Under the pieces are notes generated by a model that saw nothing but the letters and a program-made list of their open reading frames with translations, ran no database searches and was not told the origin of the DNA. Shown here one piece after another: positions 14,057 through 64,000 of a DNA stretch of 64,000 nt; the first letter of the stretch is position 1, and each line of letters begins with the position of its first letter. This stretch comes from a virus, in the IMG/VR virus record IMGVR_UViG_3300042090_002597, positions 1 to 64,000 of that record. One strand, written 5' to 3'. The position numbers were made by a program, and so were the translations under genes.

Positions 14057-14082
14057 GGATGCTCCCCTTCAAGGAGTGTTTC

Positions 14083-15642
14083 GTGAAAGCAAACCCGATC
14101 AAATCCTGCCGCGGCTGCACCGACGCCGCTGTGCGAGCGAAGATGCCGCACGAGGAGCAGTGTAACGCCTGCCGAAAGAAAGAATTGAACCGAAAATGGC
14201 GGCTGGCCAACCCAGGTGCGATGGCTGCGAACGCCAGGAAATGGCGCGAGGCCGGCAACAAGACCGTCCGCCCCGAAGGTTACGAGGAGCAGCAGCGCCT
14301 CAAAAAACTGGAAAAATACAGAAACGATCCGGAACATCGCGAGAAAGCCAAGGCGGCCGCCAAACAGCGCCGTCTGGAAAAACCGGATATCGTGAAGGCA
14401 GAAACGAAGTCCTGGATGGAGCGTAATCGTCCGGCAGTCCGGCGGTACCAAAGCGATTATCAGCGCGAGCGGCGCGCGTCAGATCCAGAATTCCACCAGC
14501 GGCTGCTCACCGCGCAGAGCATGTGGCGCATCCGGCACTGGGCGAAAGACCCGCAGAGCAACAGCTGGATACGGCACCTGGAAAACCAATCAATCGACCC
14601 TGTGTGGCGCCAGAGACTGCACGTTTGGCAGGACAACCGATGCTACATGTGCAACAAAAAAGACAACAACATGACGATCGAACACATCATTCCGCGCAGC
14701 CGCAGTGGGCCGACTGTGAAACAAAATATCGTCTATACTTGTTCGTCCTGCAACTATTCCCGCAGGGCTTTGATATGGGGTACCGAGTGGCAACCTCGAA
14801 ATGTCGACACCAGCCTGACCGACCTGACGGTCACTTACAAAACGATCTCGCACGCACTTAGAGAGGCCGGACTAGAAGCTGCTGAAAACGGCCGCGGCGG
14901 TTTCCGCATCCACAGCGATAAGCGCGCATCGTCCCGCGATCTGTACATCCTGTCCACCTTTGCCGCCAGCGAGCGAAACGTGTCGTCTCGTGATGGCCGG
15001 TTCGCGTGCATTCTGCGAGACGCTGACCCGAATGCGATCATTCTGTTCGACTACGAATGGTACGCCCGGGCAAAAGCGGTGCTGAACATGCTTCGGTCGA
15101 AAATGGGCATCGCCGAGAAAGGGATCGGCGCCCGGGAACTGTCAGTGGTCGAAGTGTCCGCCGAGGACGCGACCGTCTTCCTGCGCGATCACCATGTTAT
15201 GGGTGCCGTGGACGCCCCGTTCCGAATCGGGCTGGCCAACGGCGAAATGCTCTGCGGTGTTGGGCTGTTCGCGGACCATGGCGATAGCTACGAATGCGTC
15301 CGGCTCGCCTTCCGCGGACATGTGCCTGGCGGCATGACCCGGATCATCCAAGGTCTGCGGCGCCTGCACGGCAACCGGCCGGTGACCTCGTTCATCGACA
15401 CCCGCTATGCCACTGGAGCCGGGCACGGGACAGTCGGCTTCACTTACGAAGGGAGGACCGAGGAAACCTACCTCTGGGTTTTGCCCGATCGGGTGCAGCA
15501 CCAGCGGTACTTGTCGAACGACAACAAGATGTCGCGCAATCTGCTCTATTTCAACCCGGACCTGCCGCGAGAAAAAAACATTCGTGCGAACGGTATTTTC
15601 AAAGTATGGGTTCCGCCGCGAGCCAAAATGCTACTGGCTTGA
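14083..15642 (+). CDS. Free-standing HNH homing endonuclease (Hef-like C-terminus)
   Basis: 519 residues from GTG 14083, chosen because AAGGAG lies 6 nt upstream. The N-terminal part has zinc pairs (CRGC, CNAC) and charged repeats. The centre holds an HNH nuclease (CYMCNKKDNNMTIEHIIPRS, then NIVYTCSSCN) with two CxxC zinc pairs. The C-terminal 200 residues (DHHVMGA, FRIGLANGEMLCGVGLF, FIDTRYATG, GFTYEGRTEETYLWVLPDR, LSNDNKMSRNLL) match the domain shared by Hef-like phage mobile endonucleases. Such enzymes cut uninfected alleles and spread by repair. It runs against the head operon between the capsid gene and head-completion genes, with its own promoter and terminator. Confidence 0.9.
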   Translation: MKANPIKSCRGCTDAAVRAKMPHEEQCNACRKKELNRKWRLANPGAMAANARKWREAGNKTVRPEGYEEQQRLKKLEKYRNDPEHREKAKAAAKQRRLEKPDIVKAETKSWMERNRPAVRRYQSDYQRERRASDPEFHQRLLTAQSMWRIRHWAKDPQSNSWIRHLENQSIDPVWRQRLHVWQDNRCYMCNKKDNNMTIEHIIPRSRSGPTVKQNIVYTCSSCNYSRRALIWGTEWQPRNVDTSLTDLTVTYKTISHALREAGLEAAENGRGGFRIHSDKRASSRDLYILSTFAASERNVSSRDGRFACILRDADPNAIILFDYEWYARAKAVLNMLRSKMGIAEKGIGARELSVVEVSAEDATVFLRDHHVMGAVDAPFRIGLANGEMLCGVGLFADHGDSYECVRLAFRGHVPGGMTRIIQGLRRLHGNRPVTSFIDTRYATGAGHGTVGFTYEGRTEETYLWVLPDRVQHQRYLSNDNKMSRNLLYFNPDLPREKNIRANGIFKVWVPPRAKMLLA

Positions 15643-22848: not shown

Positions 22849-23039
22849 CTAATAATCGCTCCAAACACGACCCCGTAGATGAGCCACATCAGCAAACCGA
22901 CAATACAGCCACCGATAAGACCAGATTGCGGCATCCAGAACTGCCACCACTCAGCATCGCGAAGCCACCATACGTCTTCGTCTTCATCTGCGTCTTCTTC
23001 GTCTTGACACGTCCGAAACATGTGCGGATGCCCCATCAT
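22836..23039 (-). CDS. Small membrane protein
   Basis: 67 residues: an acidic N-terminus (CQDEEDADEDEDVWW) and one C-terminal hydrophobic segment (LIGGCIVGLLMWLIYGVVFGAII). The start codon shares its A with the stop of the giant glycosyltransferase (TGATG). Function unknown. Confidence 0.7.
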   Translation of the reverse strand: MMGHPHMFRTCQDEEDADEDEDVWWLRDAEWWQFWMPQSGLIGGCIVGLLMWLIYGVVFGAIIRWLI

Positions 23040-26000
23040 CAGTCCGCGGCCTCCGCTGTTTCCGCTGGCGCTCCGAAAAGGGTTTCGTACGCCGCTTTCC
23101 AGTCGGAAGCGCCAATCGCGCCGAACACCGGAAGCACGCCCTTGTCCGACAACCAGGGCGTCAGCAGCGCGGGGTCAATCGGATCCGCCTCCACCGGAAT
23201 GCCGGTTGCGGCAAGACAGCGCAGAACCTCCACCGGAGCAGCCGCGCCACCGGAACCAACCAGCGAGCGCAGCACAATCTTGGTGATGCCAAGATGTTTC
23301 AGGTCCGACGCCATGTCGGCGGCATTGCGCACATCCCAGCCGCCGAGATTGGCGGGGATCGGAGCCACAAGCCTGAGCACAAGCCCACTGGCGTCGGCCC
23401 CGAGCGGGATCGCTCCTTTCTTGACGTACTCCAGCGCCCGGCCGGCCTGACCTGGCATGTCATTGATGAGCAAGACCCGTTCAGCAGCCGGATCGGCGGC
23501 TTTCGGCGGCCAGTTCAACTGGGTCCGATCCAGTCCGGGAATGGCCATTCCGCCTTGGGCGAGCCCGAGCGCGAGATCGGGATGCCAGTACGGATCCGGA
23601 TCGGGCCACTTCGCCGCAAACCGTGCGTTGTCCGCCTGCAACCGCCGGACCATGCCTTCCTGATCCGCCGGATTGGACCGGGAAGTGCCTTCCGGATGCA
23701 GCAGCTCGGCGGTCATTTCAACCACATTGCGCAGCCCGATTTTCCGCAGTTTCAGGCAGAAATCGGTGTCGCTGTAGTTGAGCGGGAAATTCTCCTCGTC
23801 GAACCCGTCCACCCGATCAAAAGCCGCCCGCGAAACCATCATGCAGGCCGCGGTCACCGCGTTCATTTCATGCGTCAATGCGGCCAGCCAGCCATTGCCG
23901 GGATTGCCGTTCTGCGAACCCTTGTAGAGATGCCCGGCGATGCCTTTGTGCGCGATCACCCCGACATGCTGAACAAAACCGGCCGGATGGATCAGCCGTG
24001 CGCCTACGGCGCCAACATCCGGGCGCACCGCGTGGCCGAGCATGTTGTCCAGCCAGTCCTCCGAGCCGTTGGCGATATCGTCATTGACGAAGCAGAGATA
24101 TTCGCCTTTCGCGTGTTCCCGTACTGCCCAGTTGTTGATCGCTGACCAGTTGAACGGCCCTGACGCATCATACCGAACCACCCGCACCCGCGGATCATCC
24201 AGCGATTCCTGGTTCAATTCCGGCTCCGCGCGCGGTCCATTTTGGACAACGAGAATTTCGAAATTCGGATATTTGGTGTGCTGGCGGATCGTATTCACGC
24301 ACGGCTGGATAAGTCTTCCACCCCCGAGAGTGGGTACGACGATGGAAATCAACGGCGCTTCGGCAGAACCATCGTGCATCAAAAGCGGCTGCCATTTCCG
24401 CACCACCGACAGCGCACCGGGAATGTGATGCGCCCTCACCGCTACATTCCCCTGATAGTATTCCTCGACCACCATCTGCCGGCCGATCGCATCAACCGCC
24501 AATTCCTCCGGCGACGAAATCTCCGGCACCGTCACCAAAAACATCGGCAAATGCTGGATCGCGCCGCGCGGGCTTTCTTCCGCAATGCGCAGTATCTCCG
24601 CGTAGAGACTGTGCTTGTCCGTCACGTCATGCAGCAGCGACTTGATCCGCACCGCACAGATGGGCGTGATATAGTCGCGAGCCAGAAACATTTCTAGATC
24701 GAAATCCGGTTTCATGTCCGGATAGCGGCCGCCGTCAGCCGAGCGAATGTCGTGGTCCGCGTAGATCACTTCCACATGTTCGGCCGCGTCTTGGCATGCT
24801 TTCTCCAGTTGGCGGAAACCGTTCGCTTTCCACTCGACCGTATCGTCCGTGAAAACCACCCATTCGTACTGCGTGCCGGTGAAGTTCACTCGACCGGTGA
24901 AGTCAGCAGGGAACAGAATGGATTTTCCGGTCAGAACCGGCGCCGGGAGATCGCCTTTCAGATCAGCCCATGCCGCATAGTCGTGTCCGAAACCCATGGT
25001 GCCGGGCTGGGGGCCCGCCCACTGCAATTTCAGGAATTCCATCTCCGCAGTCACACGCTCCCGGTCGGACAGCGCCTCGCCCGGACCACCTTGTAGCAAC
25101 TGCATGTAGCCGCGAATTTGCAGCCGCTGTCCCGCCTTCTGCGTCGGCACCATCGGCGGCATCACCGCCGAAGCAAAGGCGTCCGCAGCCTGCATAACCC
25201 GGAAGCCCTTCATGCCTGCCCGCAGGCTCCATTCAAACAGAGCTTGCTCCTCGTTGCCATCGCAGCCATCGACATCGGGCAGTCCCATCAGCGCAAGCGC
25301 CCGAGCCCCAAGAAGCGCGACCGGCCCCGACAGCGCTGCCACCGACAGCCGCCGGTTGCGCATCTGCTTCGCCAGCACTTCGTTCATGGCCGAAGTGGTC
25401 TCGGCGGACACCAGGGTCCAGTGATCCTTGCGCGGGAAAGCATTCGGACCGTCACTCGCCAAAGGCAGCGCAGCTGCGATACCGTCCGCCTGCGCCAATG
25501 CAGCACGGAGCGCGTCCCAACTGCCCTGGTTCAGCGTCGTTCCCGGCCGCAACCAGAGCAGATCCGCACCGGTGCTGACTGCACGCTTGGCGGCGTCAAC
25601 AAGCCCGAACTTGCGGGTCATGTTCCGGGCCCAACGAGGCGGCTCCACATCCTTGGCCAGCGAAAGCACGACATCTTCTTTTCGCGGCGAAACCGCTGGT
25701 CGAGGTTCGAATATATCCTCGTCGACCTTCAGCCAGCCCTCGACTCGCTCTTTCAGCCGCTTTTCCAGGGTGTGGTTGTTCATCACCCAGTTCTGCAGCC
25801 GCGCCGCCGCATCCGTCCGCTCGGCCTGCGTGGTCGCCATGAACGAACGAATCGCTGCGGTCCACTCATCCGGCGCATCCGCAAAAGCGAAAGCGGGCGG
25901 CTTACCCTGCGTGTACGGCTCCAGCCTCTGAGCAATGACCGAGGCGCCGATCATGCCCGCCTCGATCAACCGCAGATTGGATTTGCAGCGGTTGAAGCGG

Positions 26001-26731
26001 TTGTCCTCCAGCGGCGCCAGCACCAGATCAAGATCCAGCTTCATCATGTGTGCCTGGTATTCGCTCGGCGGAACGCCGGGATGAAATTCAACCCGGACCG
26101 GCGGATTTTTCGGCTGCGTGCCGAAGAACACCCACTCCACTTCCTCTCCGATCGCCTGCATGGCTGGACGGATAATCTCCAGGTCACCCGCATGCGATAT
26201 GCCGCCAGCAAAGCCAACCCGCAGCCGCCCGCCGTCCTTCGCGCGTCCCTCGCGCGGCCGGATAGCCGCCATCGGCACCGCATTGCCGATGACCCGGACA
26301 TCCTTCGCGCCGAGATCGTCGCGAAACCACTCCGCCAGCGGTTCCGTCGAGACAGTAACCCGATCGCACAGCGCCATCGCAGTCTTGATGCGCTCGGACA
26401 GATTGGGAGGCATGAAACCCGCATGGAACGACGCCTTCGGAATTTCACCGAGATAGTCGTCCAGTTCGAACACGAACAGCGCATCCGGCATCGCCTTGCG
26501 GGCGTTCTTGATCGCCTCGATCTGACCATCTTCAACGTAGCGCTGGAACACGATCACATCCGGCGCCGCGGCCTGGATCATATCCGCCGGCCATTGCGCC
26601 AAATCTAGCCGTCCTTCCGCCATACCATTCTGCACCAGCGACACAAGCGGGATGGCACAGCGATGAAAGCCGCATCCCTGGAGATCGGACGCAAAGACCA
26701 GAACGAAAGGCGGACGAACATGTTCAGCCAT
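23039..26731 (-). CDS. Giant two-domain glycosyltransferase
   Basis: About 1230 residues from ATG 26731. Residues ~10-360 form a GT-B fold domain (DVIVFQRYVEDGQ, FELDDYLGEIP, RVTVSTEPLAEWF, VRVIGNAVP, LRVGFAGGISHAGDLEII). The middle is partly unassigned. Residues ~790-1050 form a GT2/GT-A domain (ISIVVPTLGGG, FEILVVQNG, CFVNDDIANGS with its DD metal site, FDEENFPLNYSDTDFCLKL). It should build or extend a glycan with two transfer activities. Lying between portal and protease genes, it may glycosylate virion proteins or DNA, or remodel host surface sugars; the acceptor is unknown. This is far longer than single-domain glycosyltransferases. Confidence 0.87.
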   Translation of the reverse strand: MAEHVRPPFVLVFASDLQGCGFHRCAIPLVSLVQNGMAEGRLDLAQWPADMIQAAAPDVIVFQRYVEDGQIEAIKNARKAMPDALFVFELDDYLGEIPKASFHAGFMPPNLSERIKTAMALCDRVTVSTEPLAEWFRDDLGAKDVRVIGNAVPMAAIRPREGRAKDGGRLRVGFAGGISHAGDLEIIRPAMQAIGEEVEWVFFGTQPKNPPVRVEFHPGVPPSEYQAHMMKLDLDLVLAPLEDNRFNRCKSNLRLIEAGMIGASVIAQRLEPYTQGKPPAFAFADAPDEWTAAIRSFMATTQAERTDAAARLQNWVMNNHTLEKRLKERVEGWLKVDEDIFEPRPAVSPRKEDVVLSLAKDVEPPRWARNMTRKFGLVDAAKRAVSTGADLLWLRPGTTLNQGSWDALRAALAQADGIAAALPLASDGPNAFPRKDHWTLVSAETTSAMNEVLAKQMRNRRLSVAALSGPVALLGARALALMGLPDVDGCDGNEEQALFEWSLRAGMKGFRVMQAADAFASAVMPPMVPTQKAGQRLQIRGYMQLLQGGPGEALSDRERVTAEMEFLKLQWAGPQPGTMGFGHDYAAWADLKGDLPAPVLTGKSILFPADFTGRVNFTGTQYEWVVFTDDTVEWKANGFRQLEKACQDAAEHVEVIYADHDIRSADGGRYPDMKPDFDLEMFLARDYITPICAVRIKSLLHDVTDKHSLYAEILRIAEESPRGAIQHLPMFLVTVPEISSPEELAVDAIGRQMVVEEYYQGNVAVRAHHIPGALSVVRKWQPLLMHDGSAEAPLISIVVPTLGGGRLIQPCVNTIRQHTKYPNFEILVVQNGPRAEPELNQESLDDPRVRVVRYDASGPFNWSAINNWAVREHAKGEYLCFVNDDIANGSEDWLDNMLGHAVRPDVGAVGARLIHPAGFVQHVGVIAHKGIAGHLYKGSQNGNPGNGWLAALTHEMNAVTAACMMVSRAAFDRVDGFDEENFPLNYSDTDFCLKLRKIGLRNVVEMTAELLHPEGTSRSNPADQEGMVRRLQADNARFAAKWPDPDPYWHPDLALGLAQGGMAIPGLDRTQLNWPPKAADPAAERVLLINDMPGQAGRALEYVKKGAIPLGADASGLVLRLVAPIPANLGGWDVRNAADMASDLKHLGITKIVLRSLVGSGGAAAPVEVLRCLAATGIPVEADPIDPALLTPWLSDKGVLPVFGAIGASDWKAAYETLFGAPAETAEAAD

Positions 26732-27305
26732 TGGGTGGACCACCTGTGTATCGTGATTGGATTTGATCGATGATTTCAGCCAGCGGATTATCTTCGTAAG
26801 TATTCCGGCTGATACCGAGAAAACGCATCTCCTCGGCGGTCAGGCTGGGCAGCGCATCGAAAAAATCGGCCAGCACTTTTTCGCGGGGTGGCTGCACCTG
26901 AAGGGGCATGCGGGAAGTGGTGTTCACTTTTTCCCACAGAGTTTTCAACTCTTGGATCTGCTCCGGTGTCATTTCACCTGCGGAAAGCATGGTCTCCTCG
27001 ATCCGATGCACACCGATCTCGGCAAGATCGTCTTCGCTCATAAACGAGATCATGTTCCGGGCGAACTCGCGCGCATCCTTCGCTTTCAGAGTCCGGAACG
27101 ACCACCCGGCGCCGAGCACCAGGAGATGGGCATCCGGATTAACCGCTTTTATCTGGCGCGTGATCGGCGACAGAACAGATGCGAAAGCACCCGGTTCGGC
27201 TCCTTCGGGAAGCCTCACCAGCACGAACACCAGCCCCTCGTCAGGAATCGGCATCAACTCGCCAGTTAGCTCACTGGCGAGAGGCTGGCGTTCACCTTCG
27301 CTCAT
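26724..27305 (-). CDS. Hypothetical protein downstream of the portal
   Basis: 193 residues, soluble, mixed alpha/beta (LVFVLVRLPEGAEPGAF, HLLVLGAGWSFRTLKAKDAREFARNMI, ADFFDALPSLTAEEMRFLGIS). The start overlaps the portal stop (ATGA). A role in head assembly is inferred only from position. No catalytic motif recognised. Confidence 0.72.
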   Translation of the reverse strand: MSEGERQPLASELTGELMPIPDEGLVFVLVRLPEGAEPGAFASVLSPITRQIKAVNPDAHLLVLGAGWSFRTLKAKDAREFARNMISFMSEDDLAEIGVHRIEETMLSAGEMTPEQIQELKTLWEKVNTTSRMPLQVQPPREKVLADFFDALPSLTAEEMRFLGISRNTYEDNPLAEIIDQIQSRYTGGPPNG

Positions 27306-31236: not shown

Positions 31237-33705
31237 CTAGTTTGACGCCAGTTTAACGCTTCCATGCGCGGCCCAGTCGCCGCAGCCTGATAGTGCGCGC
31301 ACGGTCTTCAGGTGCTGCGGATGCTTGCACCTCTCCGCATTGTCGAACACGCCGTAGTAGGCGCAAGGAGCGCCGCACATGCCCTGGAACGGGCTGTCCG
31401 CCAACTGGCTTGCTTCGCCCGCGGCTGCCGCCGCGCCAGCTTCCGCCACCGCCTGGAAGGCAGCCATGGCATCCATCCGGGGATCGCCTTCGAACAGTCC
31501 GCCCAAGCCACTCGGCACTCCAGCCGTGGCTGGCAGACCAGGCACGTACGCCACCTGCCGGCTGAGCGCTATCGCCCGGGTGACGATATGGACCAGAACG
31601 TCAAACTCATCCGACGCCTTCACCCCGCCGGCAAAGCCGCACACCTTCTGCATGAATCCCTGCAGCGCATCCCCATGCGGATTGCGAAGCCACTCCGCGC
31701 CCTCCGGCACCAGCACCCGGCCCATCTTCGCCCAGCCTTGCACGGACGCCGCGCCGCCAGGGATCGGCAGCCCGCCGTCGCCAGTGAGGATAGGATTGAT
31801 GGCGCGCTCGACCTTGCCCTGCTGCACCATCTGCCCGTAGATCGGAATGTGCGTGCCCTTGAAGGTGCTCAACAGCCCGACGCCGGACTGCTTCTCTTCC
31901 ACGATCACCCGCCGCGGATGCCACACGCCGAAGCGGCTGCGCAGCGCCATGGCCAATTCCTGGAAATTCAGGTGCCGCACCATGAGATCAAGCAGATAAA
32001 CGTCGTAGTGGAAGTCGCACTTGCCGACGATCTCGGGATCCTCGCCCCGGTGCCACTGGTTGCAGGGCACGAAAAGCGCTGTGAGTGCGGCTGTGAGGCT
32101 CGACGATTGCGGCTGGCCCAGCGCGGTATCCCAGGCTTCCTCGATGACCCCCTTCATGCTGTCCGTCCAGCCGCGCACATTCGGCGCCTGAATGCCCAGC
32201 GAGAGGTCTTCCGGCGGTATGTACGGCCGGAAATCCTCTTCCTTGAACACACCCTCCCCGCCGCCGGACATGTCCCCGTCATAGTTCACCGCCGCCGTAC
32301 GGGGCTGGCGTCGCTTGACGGTCAGGTAGTTCCGGCGCTGGAGCTTGCTGTCCGGCCAGTAGAAGCCCATGCCGGTCTTGTCGATCGCCGCGTAGTAGAC
32401 CCGGTATTTCAGATAAAGCGAGTTGTTCTGCTCCTCCGGCGGGGCCAGTTCGCCGGTCTCCGAAAACACGCACTGGAGCACCCGGCCGGTCTCGGGATCC
32501 ATCGGCACATAGACGTCGAACCAGAGCCGCCGGCTGCCGCCTCGCCGCGTAGCGGGCAGTTCCATTACCACCCAATCGCCGGACTTGCGCCACTCCTGGT
32601 ACAGGTCGTCCTCGGCCCACCAGCGCCCCACCGCCACGCGCCTGCAGCCGCGAGGGTCCGCCCGGCTCATGAGCGTGCGGTAGTACTTGCCCACCACCGT
32701 GGCGCGGCTCTCCGGCGTATTGGAGTTCTCCTCGTCGTGGAGATCGTCCAGGATCATCAGGCGGGTGTGCAGACCGGTCAGGGCCTTCGAACCCAGGCCC
32801 GCACAGAAATAGGACGGGTTCTCGTCGCCGCGGTGCCGGCCGGTCACGTACAAGCCGCGTTCCAGACTCCAGCCGACACCCGCGTCCGGCCGCACGTCGG
32901 GGAAGTATTTTTTGAATGTGGGATCATCCTTGATGATCTGCATCGAGGCCTGAAGGAACGTCTGAGGGAGCCTTTCTCCCGCGGAGACGGACAGGATGGC
33001 CAGGGTCGGATCGTGGCCGAGTTCCCAGGTCGGGTAGACAATATCGAATAAGTTACTATTGTGTGTAACAACCCCGTCAGTAGTTATATAGAGCCCGTCT
33101 ACTACGCCTACCTGTATGCACACACTGCGCTGTTCCTCGGTCTCCTGGCTGGCGTGCTCCAGTCTTACTGTGCCGATCTCATTATTGCTCGGTTCATGGT
33201 GGAGCGGCACGAACCAGTCTATGTCGTCGAGCGTGCTCACAATGTCTTTTGTTTTTACGGTGGACCACTCCCACCCTTCCCATCCAGGTGTTCCGTACCG
33301 GTGCTGCGCCGCCACCCACAGGTGATCTTCGTGACAGGTGACAAGCCTGTTTCCTGCAAAAAACAAATTCCATAATTTACTCTCAGGAACATCAACACGA
33401 GCGACAACGTAGGCGTCGCCGCCCCTCGGATGACTGACTTTGCTGCCCAGTCGGATGAAATCAATCGGTACCCAGCCATCAGGGGTGAGCACCGGCATGT
33501 CTGGTGCTAGTGCCTTCCCCGCCCCTGCACTCACGAGCGCGAGAAGATTCTGGATTCGCTTGTCTTCCAGTCCGGCCACCAGCGGATAGTGGTGCGGTGC
33601 CAGATTGAAGCCCCTACGGCCCTGAACCAGATTGTAGTACTCGGCCAGACCGATCTTGAGTTTGGGTCCTGGATCAGGCGCCGGTGCGGGTTCCGACTTA
33701 CGCAT
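31237..33705 (-). CDS. terL: Terminase large subunit, interrupted by an intein
   Basis: 822-residue precursor. The ATPase Walker A is split: SAGAGK at residues 59-64, then after the intein S217 NLFDIVYPTWELG. Walker B with the catalytic acid is at ~320 (LMILDDLHDEEN). The nuclease half has acidic positions at ~570 (DVYLLDLMV) and ~603 (VIVEEKQSGVG). After splicing the enzyme would be 670 residues and would cut and package phage DNA through the portal. A C-terminal Cys-rich extension (MCGAPCAYYGVFDNAERCKHP) resembles a zinc knuckle. The start ATG overlaps the stop of the radical SAM gene. Confidence 0.9.
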   Translation of the reverse strand: MRKSEPAPAPDPGPKLKIGLAEYYNLVQGRRGFNLAPHHYPLVAGLEDKRIQNLLALVSAGAGKALAPDMPVLTPDGWVPIDFIRLGSKVSHPRGGDAYVVARVDVPESKLWNLFFAGNRLVTCHEDHLWVAAQHRYGTPGWEGWEWSTVKTKDIVSTLDDIDWFVPLHHEPSNNEIGTVRLEHASQETEEQRSVCIQVGVVDGLYITTDGVVTHNSNLFDIVYPTWELGHDPTLAILSVSAGERLPQTFLQASMQIIKDDPTFKKYFPDVRPDAGVGWSLERGLYVTGRHRGDENPSYFCAGLGSKALTGLHTRLMILDDLHDEENSNTPESRATVVGKYYRTLMSRADPRGCRRVAVGRWWAEDDLYQEWRKSGDWVVMELPATRRGGSRRLWFDVYVPMDPETGRVLQCVFSETGELAPPEEQNNSLYLKYRVYYAAIDKTGMGFYWPDSKLQRRNYLTVKRRQPRTAAVNYDGDMSGGGEGVFKEEDFRPYIPPEDLSLGIQAPNVRGWTDSMKGVIEEAWDTALGQPQSSSLTAALTALFVPCNQWHRGEDPEIVGKCDFHYDVYLLDLMVRHLNFQELAMALRSRFGVWHPRRVIVEEKQSGVGLLSTFKGTHIPIYGQMVQQGKVERAINPILTGDGGLPIPGGAASVQGWAKMGRVLVPEGAEWLRNPHGDALQGFMQKVCGFAGGVKASDEFDVLVHIVTRAIALSRQVAYVPGLPATAGVPSGLGGLFEGDPRMDAMAAFQAVAEAGAAAAAGEASQLADSPFQGMCGAPCAYYGVFDNAERCKHPQHLKTVRALSGCGDWAAHGSVKLASN
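33058..33513 (-). other. Class 3-like mini-intein inside the terminase
   Basis: Residues 65-216 (152 residues) of the terminase. It begins with Ala instead of Cys/Ser (ALAPDMPVLTPDGW) and ends VVTHN followed by Ser. Block B is RLVTCHEDHLWV and block F SVCIQV with Cys at the position usually Asp, then YITTDG. Ala at position 1 plus the Trp-Cys-Thr set is the mark of class 3 inteins, which start splicing from the block F Cys. No homing endonuclease domain is present. It is inserted between K and S of the Walker A motif, so splicing is needed for an active ATPase. The DNA is AT-richer than its flanks. Confidence 0.85.
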
Positions 33706-34609
33706 ACGCTGGCACTTCTATTCCTGCAGGTGCCATCTTCGCCAAAGGCTTTGATCTAATAGATGCGTCGTACCCAGCAAAATCCGTGTAGCGCCAAAAC
33801 CGACCGTTGATCCACCTCTGCACCCGTTTTAGTTGATGCAGAGTCCAGTCAAAACGGACATTTGGCTCTTTCACCAGCGCATTCAGTTTCACGTACGGTT
33901 GCACATAGGGCTCGCCGCCCCAGCCGATAACCTGCTGTATTCTGTCCATACAAGCGTCGAACGGCTCATTGCCGACAAGCACATAGACTTGCTTGCGCCT
34001 TGGTGAGAAGTCTTTCAGCATCCGCATAACCCGCTCTACATGCGGACCGTCTGCGGCGTCATCGTAAGCAAAACGCCACGGGCCTTTGTTCACGATCGAC
34101 CAGAGCGCCAGCACATCTTCATTGAAAGTGCGCGGCTCAAAGCCGCTGTTGGCGTCCAGCAGAGGCACCCGTGCCTGCAAATAGCGCCGCACTATATGTT
34201 GCTGGTAGTCCATGGAAAGCGCCGACAAATTGTTGTCACACAGGACTGGCCGCACGGGGAAATCAGGCAGCAAAGTGAAATCGCGCCCCTCCATTTTCGG
34301 CACAATGCAGAACCAACAGCCAACTGAGCAGCCTCGGCTGGCGATCGTCGCCATGGGATTATGTCGCGCAACCGCATCCGGGATATCGCCGCCAACTTCG
34401 TCGACCACATCATCTAGGTAATGTTTGCGGGTGAATAGTCCGGGACCGCCCGCGCGCACTTTATATCCCTGCGCCCGGTAGTACTTTGCTCGTTCACGGG
34501 CCTCGTCTAGTCTCCAGGTGAACACAATCGACAGATAGGCCGTGTCGCCGTCGGTCCACTCCACCAGACCGCTGGACGCCCATTTTCCTTTGTTGTACGG
34601 ACTTACCAA
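33698..34609 (-). CDS. Radical SAM-like protein
   Basis: About 304 residues. IASRGCSVGCWFCIVP at residues ~90-105 holds the CxxxCxxC motif for a 4Fe-4S cluster with an aromatic before the last Cys, as in radical SAM enzymes. The flanking beta/alpha pattern (LCDNNLSAL, VPLLDANSGFEPR, WRFAYDDAADGPHVERVMRML, QVYVLVGNEPFDAC) fits a partial TIM barrel. The TTG start at 34609 is chosen because GGAAGGA lies 7 nt upstream and it overlaps the stop of the upstream small gene (TTGGTAA). The substrate is unknown. It is unusual to find it directly next to the terminase. Confidence 0.82.
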   Translation of the reverse strand: MVSPYNKGKWASSGLVEWTDGDTAYLSIVFTWRLDEARERAKYYRAQGYKVRAGGPGLFTRKHYLDDVVDEVGGDIPDAVARHNPMATIASRGCSVGCWFCIVPKMEGRDFTLLPDFPVRPVLCDNNLSALSMDYQQHIVRRYLQARVPLLDANSGFEPRTFNEDVLALWSIVNKGPWRFAYDDAADGPHVERVMRMLKDFSPRRKQVYVLVGNEPFDACMDRIQQVIGWGGEPYVQPYVKLNALVKEPNVRFDWTLHQLKRVQRWINGRFWRYTDFAGYDASIRSKPLAKMAPAGIEVPAYA

Positions 34610-34743
34610 AACTGCATCCTTCCGCCCGTATTCGACAAGCCCGAATGACCTTCCGGCGGTGGTCGACCCCAGGTTCCCCGGATCAACACAAAACCGACCA
34701 GTACCGTCACCGTCGCCAATCGAGTAATTGCCCAGAAAGTCAT
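34603..34743 (-). CDS. Tiny single-span membrane protein
   Basis: 46 residues with one hydrophobic segment (FWAITRLATVTVLVGFVLI) and a hydrophilic tail. Its ATG overlaps the stop of the 34740 gene (ATGA) and its stop overlaps the TTG start of the radical SAM gene (TTGGTAA), strong support for a real, coupled gene. Confidence 0.65.
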   Translation of the reverse strand: MTFWAITRLATVTVLVGFVLIRGTWGRPPPEGHSGLSNTGGRMQFW

Positions 34744-35006
34744 GGTGTTGCCTTCGGGCCCCACACCGGGCTGAGATCAATCACATTCAGCGGCTGTACC
34801 GCTGCATCATGCTCCGCATTCACCATCGGAATCTCGATATCCGATTTGCTGGCCGGCTTCTTCTCTTTCCCCTCGCCCTTCAACTTGTTCGCCTCATCCG
34901 CCAGTTTACCGGCCTCGCGGCCGGACATTCCGTGTTCCGCCGCAATGTCCTTGTCGTGCGCGGCCGCATTGAACAGGCGTCTCTGGGCGGGAGTAAAAGG
35001 TGCCAT
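34740..35006 (-). CDS. Small helical hypothetical protein
   Basis: 88 residues. MAPFTPAQRRLFNAAAHDKDIAAEHGMSGREAGKLADEAN looks like a short helical domain of the type seen in phage proteins of unknown role; the middle is lysine-rich. Its ATG directly follows the HNH gene's TAG stop with no gap. Confidence 0.7.
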   Translation of the reverse strand: MAPFTPAQRRLFNAAAHDKDIAAEHGMSGREAGKLADEANKLKGEGKEKKPASKSDIEIPMVNAEHDAAVQPLNVIDLSPVWGPKATP

Positions 35007-35546
35007 CTATTTTCTCCATCTAGCATCTGCTGCCATTTTTGCTAGCGGCGCTATTCGCGCCGCTTTCATCGGAGCCATAGCGTCGTACGCACATTTTCTA
35101 CCGCAGTATTTTGTTTTGCTTTTCATTTTTTCCGCAGTGCCTGATACCGTTACACCACAGTGAGCACAAGTCAAGCTAACTATCTTAACACGAGCAGCAT
35201 CTTTGCACACAGCAGAACAAAATCGTTTTGTTTTGTCTTTATGTATCCTAGATTTTGGTTTTAAGTCTACTTTCCCGCACCACACACACCGCACAGGTAT
35301 CCGCGGATGATGCAGTTGCTGGTGGCACCGCGCACAGAGCCACCGGACAACAAGCGGTTTACTGTAATCATCGTGGTGAGCTTGTGTCGGTTCAGCGCCG
35401 CATTTCTCACAAGAAAGTGTAGTTAATCGTCCGTCGCGAACTGCGCGAGATAGTTTCATTCTCGCAGCTTGGCGCATATTGCTTTCGGGCTTTGCACGCT
35501 GGCGGCGGTTATACTCAGCACGTTTTGCGGGGTCTATTTTTGTCAT
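35007..35546 (-). CDS. HNH/zinc-finger nuclease-like protein
   Basis: 179 residues. The N-terminal third has CEKCGAEPTQAHHDDYSKPLVVRWLCARCHQQLHH, a zinc-stabilised HNH-type motif common in phage homing enzymes. Two further zinc modules follow (CVWCGK ... FCSAVC; CAHCGV ... YCGRKC). The basic N-terminus should bind DNA. It lies in front of the radical SAM-terminase cluster. Whether it cuts DNA or only binds it cannot be told. Confidence 0.8.
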   Translation of the reverse strand: MTKIDPAKRAEYNRRQRAKPESNMRQAARMKLSRAVRDGRLTTLSCEKCGAEPTQAHHDDYSKPLVVRWLCARCHQQLHHPRIPVRCVWCGKVDLKPKSRIHKDKTKRFCSAVCKDAARVKIVSLTCAHCGVTVSGTAEKMKSKTKYCGRKCAYDAMAPMKAARIAPLAKMAADARWRK

Positions 35547-35810: not shown

Positions 35811-36139
35811 TTAGCAGTCGCCAAACTATCCTTGATACTCAATTTGTGCGCGAAAAAACTTTGTGCGGATCCGTCGTATCTGACTTTCTGCATTTCCATT
35901 TTGCAGTAAGGGTTCGGTGTGTCAGAGACAGAGTTGATCGAAGTCAGCGCATAGATTCCTTCGAAAACAAGCGGAGCCGCAACAGATGGGCTCATTGTCT
36001 CGACGCACTGGCGCACTGTCTCAGCGTGCCCGGCAGCATTGGTGAGACCAATACCAACACAATGATGCAGAAATACGATCGCCGCTTCCAGCTTTTCCTT
36101 TAGCTTGTCCTCGGCCGATCTTGGAGCGTACGCGCTCAT
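35741..36139 (-). CDS. Hypothetical protein, possibly frameshifted at its end
   Basis: 132 residues starting ATG 36139, overlapping the stop of the upstream gene (ATGA). The N-terminal half is helical (SAEDKLKEKLEAAIVFLHHCVGIGLTNAAGHAETVRQCVETM). The end runs out of frame shortly before a conserved-looking tail (see the 35676 entry), so the natural C-terminus may be longer. No domain recognised. Confidence 0.62.
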   Translation of the reverse strand: MSAYAPRSAEDKLKEKLEAAIVFLHHCVGIGLTNAAGHAETVRQCVETMSPSVAAPLVFEGIYALTSINSVSDTPNPYCKMEMQKVRYDGSAQSFFAHKLSIKDSLATAKIFGRHAEITPFFGVSIRGISEP

Positions 36140-37170
36140 GTGAAACTGAAATTCGCTGCGGTCGGTTTTTCACCGATAAAGACAATGTCCCCGCCGCCGG
36201 GGATAGGCAATTTCCAGTTGCCGCCCGCATGCACCAGCGCCGCCTTCACCTCCGTGAAAGTGCCGAGCCCGGTGATCTGGTGCAGATCAACCACATTGGT
36301 TCCGAGATCATTGATGTCCGCCTGTCCGCCGTAATCTCCGGCGGTGCCGTCCACAATGACCGTGTTGCCGGCCAGACCCATCCCGATCGCGGCGGAGCCG
36401 TTATCGGTGAGAAACACCCGGTTGAGAATTCCCGCTTCGGAAATGGTGGTGTAGAGCGTGTGCCCGGACACATAGACGCTGCTGCCGTCATCAACAAAGA
36501 CATCCGCCTTTGCCGGCGTTCCGTCATCATCGCCACCAACACTGATCGTGTCCGCCCACCCCAACGCCACCACATTGGAGTAGCCGGCGTTGATCGAGAT
36601 GTGATCGTAGGCACCCCCCGCCACTATGGTGCTGTCGCCACCGGCGCTGACGATGGTGTCGATGCGCCCATTGGCGACAATCACATCGGACTTGCCGCCG
36701 AGTGCCGCCACATTGATCAGATCATTGTCGCCGCGGGCCTGGATGGTGTTGCGGCCCGAACCGGCCACGATCACATCACTGTTGCCGCTGGCGGAGATAT
36801 CGTTGTTGCCGTCGCCGACCGATATGTAGGCGCCCGCGCCAGCGTCGTGGATGACCGTGTTGCCGTTCCCGGCGACGATGGCGCCCTGGGCCATCTGCCC
36901 CGCGTCGACCACGTCAGTATTGCCCTTGACGGACTGCAGGATGACCAGATCATTGGTGCTGACGCCGGTCAACGTGACCGTGCTGTTGCCAGGTCCGAGC
37001 GTGACCCCGCCGTCCTTGACATGATCTACTTGAGCTGTGTCATTGCCGGGGCCCATGGCTACGAACAGGCCCTCGCCGGTACCTGTGCCGGTCACGGTGA
37101 TGTCGAAATTTCCTGCGCCGACGGTGAGGTATGCATTACTGCCGGCGATGGAGAGCGGAATTTGTTTCAT
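36136..37170 (-). CDS. Glycine-rich beta-helix / RTX-like repeat protein
   Basis: 344 residues made of repeated short units of the form GxGNxxITxxG and G-N/D-x-D-x-I (VGAGNFDITVTG, MGPGNDTAQV, VAGNGNTVIHDAGAGAYISVGDGNNDISASG, GSGRNTIQARGDNDLINV). This pattern gives calcium-binding RTX or parallel beta-helix folds, as in adhesins and tail spikes. There is no signal peptide. The last 30 residues (GGDIVFIGEKPTAANFSFT) form a distinct tail. Likely a structural or adhesion protein of the virion; function inferred. Confidence 0.78.
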   Translation of the reverse strand: MKQIPLSIAGSNAYLTVGAGNFDITVTGTGTGEGLFVAMGPGNDTAQVDHVKDGGVTLGPGNSTVTLTGVSTNDLVILQSVKGNTDVVDAGQMAQGAIVAGNGNTVIHDAGAGAYISVGDGNNDISASGNSDVIVAGSGRNTIQARGDNDLINVAALGGKSDVIVANGRIDTIVSAGGDSTIVAGGAYDHISINAGYSNVVALGWADTISVGGDDDGTPAKADVFVDDGSSVYVSGHTLYTTISEAGILNRVFLTDNGSAAIGMGLAGNTVIVDGTAGDYGGQADINDLGTNVVDLHQITGLGTFTEVKAALVHAGGNWKLPIPGGGDIVFIGEKPTAANFSFT

Positions 37171-60088: not shown

Positions 60089-62755
60089 CTAGTTCACGAT
60101 GCGGAGGTCCGGGCGGACACGCTCAATACGCCATTTCGTAACATGCGTATCGCCTCCGCCGCTCTTGGTGCCGCCATCCTTGACGAACCGAAGGCCGCCG
60201 GTGATCCGCCCGGAGTGTCGTCCAAGCCAGTTGCTGAGCCGCTGGGGGTCGACAATTCCGCGGTAGCCGGCGGCCCGGAGCATGATGTCGAGCAATTCAC
60301 CGCGCTCGACCACGCTCTCTGCTGGCCCCCCGACAACCTGGAGGCTATGTGCCGGCACGCCGAAACCTGCCTGCATAGCGGTGTCGGCGGCTTCCTTGGC
60401 GGTGTACGCCTTGTCGGAACCAAGACGACTGTTCCACGCCACCAGCATGTCCCGCAGGTTTTTCAGGTCTGGATCGTCCGCCCGGGCCCGGTCCATGGCC
60501 AGCACCGGATCCGGCCAGCCGAGCCAGATCAGGGCACCCCGGACATGGCGGGACCACGCCTCGTACGAGCCGAGCGGCCGCAAATTCTTGGACCCCGGAA
60601 AACCGGCTGCCGCGTGCGCCCGGAGAATGTCCAGTACTGCTGCCACATACGACCCCCGGTCGTTCTCTACCATTTTGAGCGGATCGAAGCGGAATGTACG
60701 GGTTTCCGGCTGTTCCACCCCGGCGTCCAGCCGGATCGGCAGGTTCCTTCGTACCATGTCTCCAGATACCTGCAGCCCGTTGCCGTTTGCGGTGAAAGTG
60801 GCGCAGCTCTCTACCTCGATGATGCTGCTGGCTCCGAGCAACCGGATCCGGATGCGCTCGCGCTCGACTGCCTGGTTCAGCACATCCGATCGCAGGACGC
60901 CGTTCACATTGTCCAGAGAGATCATCGGATAGCCAGCGGCGATCAGGCCATGCAACCGCTTGTCCAGTTCCTGGGGATTGTCGCTCGCGCTTGCCACAGG
61001 ACACCTTTGCCCGGTTGCTATAAGTGAAGCCAGATCAATGAGATGGCTTTTGCCTGTCCCGGCGTCGGTGGCGGATACGGAGAACATGGGTGCCAGCGAA
61101 ACGGCGCTGCGACAGACTGCGGTGAAGATCAGCGCGAGAGCGACGGAGCGGTCAACCTCGTCGACAAAGGGAAATCCCTCCAGCAGAGCGTTCACATGTC
61201 CTAGCCCCGTCGCGGCGTCCGACATAACGGCGTGCCGTGTGCCCCAGTTTTCGGGCATGCGGAGGTACGGATCGATTACCCGATGCACGCGCAAATCGGG
61301 GTCGTAGCCGACTCCGGTCGACAACCTCCCGTCTGGAAGCAAACCGGGTACGGCGACAACTCCGGCGATCTCGGGAAACGGGCGCGCGGTCGCTCTTTCG
61401 AGCAGGACCATCACCACATCGTTCGGAGGGTCGATAGTGACCAGTTTCTGCGCGCGGCCGTCGTAGCGCACCCAGGTGGCGACCTTGGACAGCACGTCAC
61501 GCAGCCCGGCCAGGGTGAAGGTGTGCAGGCCCACAGTGGTGGTGGTCAGGCCTTGGCTGCGCACCGTACGGGAGACCGGTGTGACCAACTGGCCGCCCCG
61601 TACATAGATCGCTTGCTGGGTGGCCAGGAGCGCCTGTTCCGCCTCGTCCGCGGCGCCGGAGAGGTTGCCGGGGTGCACCTGGATGGTGGGCCGCTGGACG
61701 GCTTGGACGATCTGCTGGGCTGGATTTGTTCTGTCCGGTATGACGATCGGCGTAAAACCAGATTCTCGAATTTTCCACTGTTGCCACGCTGTTCCGCCTT
61801 TCCAGGTCCGGCCGGCTGCGGCTTCGTGGCGCTGGGCTTCCCGGTGCAGCGAGGCGTAGCCGGAGTTCCGGGTTGGGGGCGAGACCCGCATCCGGTCCCA
61901 TTCTTCTTCGCAGGTGACCGATTCGCCGTACGCCGGGCTGCGGCGAGACCATTCGTCCCAGGCGGCGAAACCCTCGTCGGAGCCATCGGTGGCGGCAAAA
62001 ATTGCCATGCCGATGGTTTCTTTCCAGTAGGTCCAGTTACTGTCCGGGTTCGGTATCAGGGAGAGGGCTTCCCGGATGACGTCCACCGGCGCCTGTACGG
62101 GCGGTGTGTCCGGGTTCAGCGGCGCGGCCGGTTTCAGGCTGGCGGAAGCACGGGCGGCCAAGCGGTTGGCGGCTTCTCCGATCGGGGATAACTGGTCCGG
62201 TGTGCCCGAGAGGCGGTCGAAGGTAATGGTGACGTAGTTTGAGCCGAGGTAGATTTCGCCTTTGGCTGGCGCGCCGTTGGCGGTGAAGGAGTACGGGGTC
62301 TTTGTTGATTTTCCGGCCCATCCATCTGCCAGTCCGATGATCCGAATGCCGGTGAGGGACGGCGATATCTCGGTGTACGAGTTGCAGTCCGCGATCACCT
62401 CTTGCGCCCACGGTGCTATCGCTCCGGTGTCTTTGTCCCGGCAGTCGTCCAGATCCAGGAAGAGAAATCCGTCGTCTGGCCGAGGTGCAAATCCGGCACC
62501 GCGTAGAGGGTTCTGTGTTTGCGCCGAGGCAAAAAGTGCAGCGGCCGCTGTTGCATAGTCGCAGAGATCGTTGTCGTCATCTGTGTGCGCCGCGCGCCCG
62601 TCGGCGGTGAGCGGCGGCTTGTCCCAGGACGATTTCTTGTTGGGGTCCCGGAGGTTTCCCTTGCGGTCGTATTTCTGCACGTAGCGCCAGACCACCCAGC
62701 GCTTCATTTCGGCCAGAGGCAGAAGGGCTTGCGGAAATTGGCGGGGCTCGGTCAC
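60089..62755 (-). CDS. Bifunctional primase-polymerase with helicase domain
   Basis: 888 residues from GTG 62755 (GTGA overlap). N-terminal PrimPol-type region (FLFLDLDDCRD ... TEISPSLTGIRIIGLADG ... GEIYLGSNYVTITFDRL), PriCT-2 at ~235-300 (NWTYWKETIGMAIFAATDGSDEGFAAWDEWSRRS), then a superfamily-3-like ATPase with Walker A SATDAGTGKSHL (~565) and Walker B MISLDNVNG (~615). It should make primers and unwind DNA for phage replication. No separate DNA polymerase is in this window. Confidence 0.88.
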   Translation of the reverse strand: MTEPRQFPQALLPLAEMKRWVVWRYVQKYDRKGNLRDPNKKSSWDKPPLTADGRAAHTDDDNDLCDYATAAAALFASAQTQNPLRGAGFAPRPDDGFLFLDLDDCRDKDTGAIAPWAQEVIADCNSYTEISPSLTGIRIIGLADGWAGKSTKTPYSFTANGAPAKGEIYLGSNYVTITFDRLSGTPDQLSPIGEAANRLAARASASLKPAAPLNPDTPPVQAPVDVIREALSLIPNPDSNWTYWKETIGMAIFAATDGSDEGFAAWDEWSRRSPAYGESVTCEEEWDRMRVSPPTRNSGYASLHREAQRHEAAAGRTWKGGTAWQQWKIRESGFTPIVIPDRTNPAQQIVQAVQRPTIQVHPGNLSGAADEAEQALLATQQAIYVRGGQLVTPVSRTVRSQGLTTTTVGLHTFTLAGLRDVLSKVATWVRYDGRAQKLVTIDPPNDVVMVLLERATARPFPEIAGVVAVPGLLPDGRLSTGVGYDPDLRVHRVIDPYLRMPENWGTRHAVMSDAATGLGHVNALLEGFPFVDEVDRSVALALIFTAVCRSAVSLAPMFSVSATDAGTGKSHLIDLASLIATGQRCPVASASDNPQELDKRLHGLIAAGYPMISLDNVNGVLRSDVLNQAVERERIRIRLLGASSIIEVESCATFTANGNGLQVSGDMVRRNLPIRLDAGVEQPETRTFRFDPLKMVENDRGSYVAAVLDILRAHAAAGFPGSKNLRPLGSYEAWSRHVRGALIWLGWPDPVLAMDRARADDPDLKNLRDMLVAWNSRLGSDKAYTAKEAADTAMQAGFGVPAHSLQVVGGPAESVVERGELLDIMLRAAGYRGIVDPQRLSNWLGRHSGRITGGLRFVKDGGTKSGGGDTHVTKWRIERVRPDLRIVN

Positions 62756-64000
62756 GACTTGACCCGCTTGGCGCGATCTTCCTGGATTCGTTTCAGACCC
62801 ATTTTGGCGTAATCAGGATTGAGTTCAATACCGATCGAGTTGCGGCCCAGGCGGTCGGCGACCATCAATGTGGTGCAGGCACCGGCAAACGGATCAAGGA
62901 CGGTGCACGGCACTGGATCGGGTGGAGGAAAGCAGGTGCAGGTGAATTTCCAGCCTGTGGTTTTGTCGGCTTTTGGTGTCCAAACTGTCTCGTCACCGCG
63001 TTCGCCGAAATGCGTTCGTTCAAGACGTTTGAAACCGTTCCCCGCGCTTCTGCCAGCGGCGGGGACTTTCTCGGATATGCGCTCAATCTGCGACCCGCAT
63101 TGCGGGCAACAACCTTTTTCACTGGTGGCGGCGAGGATCAGCGGTTCGACGTTCAAGCATGAGCAGCACGGCTCCCACCGCAGAGTTTCTATCCCGATGG
63201 GTTCTTTGTAGCTCGCGCCCTGACTGCCTCGCGAATGCCGAGCGTCTTGTTTATCGCCAAACCAATTTTCGTGAACTTTGTATTTCGTTTCTGCAATTCG
63301 CCGCCACGGTGTCCCGCAATTCGCGCAGCAGCCTTTCTCGCTTGTCGCCGCCGTAATAAGCGGCTCAACTAGTTTCACTGGAAATGTTGCGAAGTGGGCA
63401 CCCTTGAACGGGTATGGGTTCACGTCCAGTGCCAGCGGTTGGCCGTCCAGGTCAGTGATGAGGTTGTGCGGTTTTTCGAGTGAGGTGAAGAACAGGTCGG
63501 TGTTGCGGAAGTTTCGCGTTGCGCAAGAAGTCATTCCAGATGCTTGCCTGTGGGGCGCATAGCCTGCAGATTTTGGACCGCGCCCGTCTGTAAATCTGTT
63601 TTGCGGCTTCATCGTACCGGGCTGTTGCACCGCAACATGATCGTAGAAATAGTCGGTGCTTTTGGTGAACATGTAGACGTATTCGATGGCGCTGGTCGGG
63701 CGGTCCTTCACGCTCTCTGGCATGCATGAGCGTTTGATCCACGGAATCTGGGATCGAAGAATCCAGCCGTCCGCCTGCATAGCCAGGGCGAGCCGGGCGG
63801 GAACCATCATCGGGTCTTTTTCTTGCAGACCGTCAGGTATGCAGCAATTGGCGGCTTTTCCGCCACCACGTTCAATTATGTAGTTTTGTTTTCCAGAATC
63901 GCCGGGTTTGTGTTGGCCTTTTCCTGGCGGCCGCGAGTACCCGTCTCCGATGTTCAGCCAGAAGATGCCATCGTCCCGCAGCACTCGCCGCAGTTCACGA
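62752..64000 (-). CDS. N4/N6-type DNA methyltransferase with duplicated zinc module (N-terminus cut off)
   Basis: Open from beyond the window edge; 415 codons visible. LRDDGIFWLNIGDGYS, PARLALAMQADGWILRSQIPWIKRSCMPESVKDRPTSAIEYVYMFTKS and the C-terminal DPFAGACTTLMVADRLGRNSIGIELNPDYAKM (motif I) are the beta-class pattern; the DPPY motif must lie outside the window. The centre holds two copies of VEPLI-x-AATSEKGCC..CG, each a zinc knuckle, an internal duplication. It methylates A or C in an unknown site. Coupled to the primase gene by GTGA. Confidence 0.88.
   Translation of the reverse strand, partial: RELRRVLRDDGIFWLNIGDGYSRPPGKGQHKPGDSGKQNYIIERGGGKAANCCIPDGLQEKDPMMVPARLALAMQADGWILRSQIPWIKRSCMPESVKDRPTSAIEYVYMFTKSTDYFYDHVAVQQPGTMKPQNRFTDGRGPKSAGYAPHRQASGMTSCATRNFRNTDLFFTSLEKPHNLITDLDGQPLALDVNPYPFKGAHFATFPVKLVEPLITAATSEKGCCANCGTPWRRIAETKYKVHENWFGDKQDARHSRGSQGASYKEPIGIETLRWEPCCSCLNVEPLILAATSEKGCCPQCGSQIERISEKVPAAGRSAGNGFKRLERTHFGERGDETVWTPKADKTTGWKFTCTCFPPPDPVPCTVLDPFAGACTTLMVADRLGRNSIGIELNPDYAKMGLKRIQEDRAKRVKS

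Follow-up and report, generated by a model that had tools for sequence, protein, structure and literature searches.

A class 3 mini-intein, predicted to self-splice, within the Walker A motif of a phage terminase large subunit

A 152-residue insert separates two adjacent residues of the Walker A motif in the terminase large subunit (TerL) encoded by the IMG/VR virus record IMGVR_UViG_3300042090_002597. We consider it very probable that this insert excises itself from the phage TerL after translation, as a class 3 mini-intein. Our analysis establishes where the insert lies, which gene carries it, its catalytic residue set, its predicted fold, its family placement, and its lack of an endonuclease. 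The source record is a viral contig of 105,740 bases, and its first 64,000 bases are the stretch of DNA analyzed here (referred to as the window).

Results

The interrupted gene lies on the minus strand and is made up as follows.

31237-33705, minus strand: TerL precursor ORF, 822 amino acids with the intein and 670 once spliced (phrog_38, NF033889, and T7 gp19 matches)
33514-33705, minus strand: N-extein, 64 amino acids, ending in LVSAGAGK (Walker A through the Lys), delimited by alignment to uninterrupted orthologs
33058-33513, minus strand: class 3 mini-intein, 152 amino acids, without a homing endonuclease domain, recognized from its WCT triplet and flanks, a class 3 profile, and a HINT-fold model
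31240-33057, minus strand: C-extein, 606 amino acids, beginning at the Walker A Ser (+1 nucleophile), delimited by alignment to the orthologs L005 and L006

By sequence homology, the ORF is a phage terminase large subunit of the T7-like type, with a predicted role as packaging ATPase and nuclease. The part following the insert matches phrog_38 (terminase large subunit; E = 3e-35) and NF033889 (T7-type TerL; E = 5e-11, under the curated cutoff of that model). A TerL profile built from orthologs matched T7 gp19 (“DNA maturase B,” 4bij; E = 1.5e-6), aligning Walker A on Walker A and pairing ILDDLHD with IIADDVE in the Walker B region, such that the homology runs across the ATPase motifs. The same matches confirm the terminase named as host gene in the first-pass annotation. 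An AlphaFold model of the terminase had a pLDDT of 33 and was set aside, and the identification is that given by the sequence profiles.

Translation of 33058-33513 yields 152 stop-free residues in frame within the 822-residue ORF, so the coordinates originally assigned to the insert are exact. The insert begins with ALAPDMPVLTPDGW (ALAPDMPVL...) and ends with GVVTHN, and it is flanked by ...SAGAGK on one side and SNLFDIVYP on the other. The insertion point thus falls between K64 and the Ser of Walker A (SAGAGK/S). Two IMG/VR orthologs without the insert (L005 and L006; 669 and 642 residues, ~69% and ~61% identity) align with a gap that spans exactly the 152 columns of the insert between K and S, which bears out the position first proposed. 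Two further uninterrupted orthologs, L014 and L015, read PPGTGKSGI and PPGTGKSTL; in all, the four orthologous terminases are roughly 60 to 70% identical to the window TerL. Because all four read straight through the K-S junction, the empty site is fixed to the residue. Among the five members known for this terminase group, the insert is therefore present in one, an occurrence that, judged from these sequences, appears sporadic, as is typical of inteins. Its GC content is 54% (GC3, 58%) versus 65% (GC3, 82%) for the C-extein. This lower value fits an acquired segment but is a weak argument by itself, because genes upstream also have a GC content of ~55%.

Class 3 inteins have no nucleophile at position 1 and instead carry a WCT triplet at positions B:12, F:4, and G:5 (PMC5050341). 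The corresponding residues of the insert, with others relevant to splicing, are listed below.

33322-33324, minus strand: His64, block B:10; invariant in class 3 alignments
33316-33318, minus strand: Trp66, block B:12, the W of WCT; invariant in alignment A1, with two relatives reading HLF
33118-33120, minus strand: Cys132, block F:4, the C of WCT and predicted initiating nucleophile; invariant
33064-33066, minus strand: Thr150, block G:5, the T of WCT as defined in PMC5050341; invariant
33058-33063, minus strand: His151-Asn152, block G:6-7, the C-terminal cleavage pair; invariant
33055-33057, minus strand: Ser+1, second splicing nucleophile and Walker A Ser of the spliced TerL; Ser in L005, L006, L014, and L015
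33334-33336, minus strand: Cys60, the only Cys of the intein besides Cys132; speculatively, a redox partner of Cys132

Position 1 of the insert is Ala1, which is neither the Cys or Ser of a class 1 intein nor any other Cys/Ser/Thr nucleophile. When we aligned the insert with eight phage relatives (alignment A1), the invariant columns included H64, L65, W66, C132, T150, H151, and N152. W66 sits two residues past H64, at B:12, and the triplet is completed by C132 at F:4 and by T150, the Thr of the terminal THN, at G:5. The block B His, the penultimate His, the terminal Asn, and the +1 nucleophile (H64, H151, N152, and S+1) are all present. Most of this set had been read correctly in the first-pass annotation, including the Ala start, the THN end followed by Ser, DHLW in block B, and SVCIQV in block F. 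The exception was the Thr of WCT, which had been mistakenly taken from YITT; the diagnostic residue is T150, at block G:5 (PMC5050341).

Aligned to endonuclease-bearing relatives, the insert is empty in the endonuclease columns between blocks B and F, in keeping with its initial description as a compact 152-residue unit. Two of its features are unusual. Its block B motif is HEDH, and the His at B:7 is replaced in relatives mostly by Cys and also by Asn, Ser, or Thr. At +1 the insert is followed by Ser, whereas Thr occupies this position in nearly all IMG/VR relatives.

When the eight relatives alone, without the window row, were made into a class 3 profile, the insert scored 81 bits against it (E = 4e-21; Z = 1e6), although this test is not fully independent since the eight relatives were found using the window as the query. 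The best of 1,000 shuffled sequences scored 7.9 bits, and none of the other frames of the window scored against the profile. As an outside check, the family profile A5 (19 rows, the window being one of them) was searched against the PDB. The class 3 inteins 6rix, 6riy, and 6bs8, the solved DnaB1 inteins of M. chimaera and M. smegmatis, ranked first (E = 2e-26 to 2e-24), and 6bs8 was also the top match when the insert was searched as a single sequence (E = 0.003). An AlphaFold model of the insert confidently adopted a HINT fold (pLDDT, 91.4; pTM, 0.83), and the leading Foldseek matches to this model were inteins, with class 3 DnaB inteins within the first eleven (E of about 1e-7 to 1e-6). Together with the WCT set, these results uphold the original assignment to class 3.

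The phylogeny proposed as a check in the first-pass annotation gave the same placement. In a maximum-likelihood tree, the insert grouped with 29 class 3 sequences and was split from three class 1 inteins with a support of 100. Within the class 3 part it formed a single long branch without a fixed place, the inner branching being unreliable in an alignment of only 140 columns. A search of viral contigs turned up no close relative of the insert, and no stretch of alignment A1 was sufficiently conserved to be used for scanning. Neither Pfam nor NCBIfam returned an intein match for the insert, and profiles of class 3 relatives were needed; that these collections miss the insert entirely suggests that divergent phage inteins are undercounted.

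The long and isolated branch, the unusual His at B:7, and the prior loss of the endonuclease might be taken to indicate a decayed class 3 intein, which folds but no longer splices, so that the phage, itself defective or decaying, would have a nonfunctional terminase. We consider this unlikely, given that every catalytic position is intact, the frame is open across both exteins, and TerL is an essential gene whose motifs here are conserved with its orthologs. It is more doubtful still that the insert belongs to class 1 or class 2, or to another kind of HINT domain (BIL or hedgehog type), and merely resembles class 3. All HINT folds are structural neighbors, the top two Foldseek matches were Prp8 inteins, and the same phage has a class 1 intein that also contains a block F Cys. 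However, position 1 lacks a nucleophile, W at B:12 and T at G:5 occur together with C at F:4, class 3 structures rank first by sequence profile, and the tree separates the insert from class 1 with full support. The absence of the insert from all four orthologs would also suit an intron, an assembly artifact, or a terminase insertion domain other than an intein, but the chance of this is negligible, as an Rfam scan for an intron gave no match, the reading frame is continuous, a HINT fold and intein motifs are present, and a permanent 152-residue domain between two P-loop residues would be expected to abolish ATP binding.

For a splicing-competent class 3 intein, a route can be proposed by analogy with the chemistry of other members of the class (PMC5050341, PMC5222942, PMC6195587, and PMC7664689). 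Cys132 in block F would attack the Lys(−1)-Ala1 bond and accept the N-extein, with His64 assisting and Trp66 and Thr150 holding Cys132 in place. The N-extein would then pass to Ser+1, and cyclization of Asn152, aided by His151, would release the intein. Finally, rearrangement of the ester (an acyl shift) would restore a peptide bond, giving a 670-residue TerL with an intact GAGKS Walker A motif. Before splicing, the P-loop Lys and Ser would be 152 residues apart, and the packaging ATPase should be inactive. An inactive precursor is plausible because the insert parts two neighboring P-loop residues, and there is a parallel in the P-loop intein of P. horikoshii RadA, which disrupts ATPase function according to a citation in PMC6195587.

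In the M. smegmatis intein DnaBi1, a disulfide between Cys48 and Cys118 stops splicing under oxidation (PMC6195587). Cys60 in block B and Cys132 are the sole cysteines of the insert, and by analogy a disulfide between them could halt splicing under oxidizing conditions, which would let the intein gate DNA packaging according to timing or stress. If so, the packaging motor would be turned on only in a reducing cell. We regard this as improbable. A Cys near position 60 is common among phage class 3 inteins and is thus not peculiar to this insert.

We also looked at the surroundings of terL and at other elements of the record, for which the following features are relevant.

33698-34780, minus strand: radical SAM protein (phrog_9298), directly upstream of terL
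35007-35546, minus strand: HNH/zinc-finger endonuclease ORF (phrog_2340), about 1.3 kb upstream of terL
G000:C1:95187-97454 (L108:1188-3455), plus strand: second intein, class 1, in a baseplate J-like gene (PF04865), outside the window

An ORF of 70 to 90 residues upstream of terL is common to the orthologs and corresponds here to the small ORF at 34740-35006. The neighboring cargo differs: in this record it consists of the radical SAM protein and the HNH-type endonuclease, whereas L006 has a Mom-family DNA-modification protein and L005 a PAPS-reductase-like protein. The region adjoining terL appears to be a variable cargo site. The HNH endonuclease at 35007-35546 was not found in the records of the four inteinless relatives, some of which are fragmentary. 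It is possibly a free-standing homing endonuclease and a candidate helper for the mini-intein, although with a single carrier this is only a lead.

The baseplate J intein, at about 96 kb in the same record, has Cys1, a LAGLIDADG endonuclease (PF14528), and the end WNGQ/C, with Gln replacing the terminal Asn. It is most closely related to actinophage inteins in ThyX and in nucleotidyltransferases.

Four other ORFs in the window were noted. A 527-residue ORF at 14059-15642 (plus strand, opposite to its neighbors) has an HNH domain (PF14279/PF01844) and resembles a free-standing homing endonuclease. The 1,234-residue ORF at 23039-26743 (minus strand), lying among virion genes, has two glycosyltransferase domains (PF13524 and PF00535), and a repetitive 344-residue ORF at 36136-37170 (minus strand) shows weak similarity to RTX-type calcium-binding repeats (PF00353, below cutoff). 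At 62752-63984 (minus strand) is a DNA N6/N4 methyltransferase with an extra stretch in which an EKGCCxxCG zinc-ribbon-like unit occurs twice. Its alignment to the profile showed a gap that had raised the possibility of an intein in this gene, which we rejected on the grounds that the extra residues resemble paired zinc-ribbon units.

Discussion

The insert is a further class 3 intein in a phage terminase, one that is compact and divergent and whose empty site is known. It supports the view that phages commonly carry class 3 inteins and that the P-loop K/S or K/T junction is a favored site, and its divergent splicing domain (HEDH in block B, Ser at +1) may help to test the residue needs of class 3 splicing. 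It leaves the understanding of inteins unchanged. The arrangement itself is not new, since class 3 inteins are found at the Walker A K/T junction of TerL in Klebsiella jumbo phages and in the P-loop of mycobacterial DnaB.

Inteins in the TerL proteins of RaK2-like Klebsiella jumbo phages (Muenster and fENko-Kae01) share with the insert the class 3 residues and the site after the Walker A Lys, and Hint plus LAGLIDADG in the TerL proteins of RaK2 and K64-1 was noted in PMC5259590. They differ in having a LAGLIDADG endonuclease region, a total length of 329 to 342 residues, and Thr at +1, and their splicing domains are only about 23 to 25% identical to that of the insert. M. smegmatis DnaBi1 (6bs8; PMC6195587), the closest solved structure by single-sequence search, is likewise a class 3 mini-intein without an endonuclease, located in a P-loop and followed by Ser+1. 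In contrast to the insert, it is 139 residues long, its host is the replicative helicase DnaB, its block B motif is DxxH (Asp at B:7; PMC6195587) rather than HxxH, and the N-side Cys of its redox pair, Cys48/Cys118, is at another position. Among mycobacteriophages, the TerL1-a intein also lies between the P-loop Lys and Thr (PMC5050341). TerL1-e (Gaia gp2) is a class 3 intein for which splicing has been demonstrated, but it occupies the Walker B site (PMC5050341), and the TerL intein of Nebkiss (Gaiavirus) is, unlike the insert, endonuclease sized at 339 residues.

Scanning IMG/VR with three related inteins returned more than 500 matching stretches, of which we retained 80 loci; another 8 came from a second scan. 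Among 67 distinct inteins delimited there, all but one (66) end in THN, and 63 lie between K and S, T, or C; the set is biased by the query inteins, which themselves sit at K/T. True mini-inteins in this set are L016 (in a DnaB-like host), L017 (probable primase/helicase), L018 and L038 (TerL), and L035/L037, whose hosts were called terminase-like by eye, with no family model behind the call. A 164-residue candidate, L067, proved to be an endonuclease-bearing intein with a misset end.

L018 and L038 are 140-residue mini-inteins that, like the insert, have the block F Cys and THN and interrupt a terminase Walker A motif, at K/T (the host of L018 matches phrog_38 at E = 4e-54). They differ in reading HLF for HLW in block B and Thr at +1, and their hosts show no match to this TerL group. 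With Phe at B:12, these class 3-like elements (L018:2501-2920 and L038:2501-2920) are a natural departure from the WCT triplet. The combination of class 3 residues, mini-intein size, Walker A site, and terminase host therefore already has near-equivalents in these two, and the insert, though genuine and unambiguous, belongs to a type already described in other phages and in bacteria.
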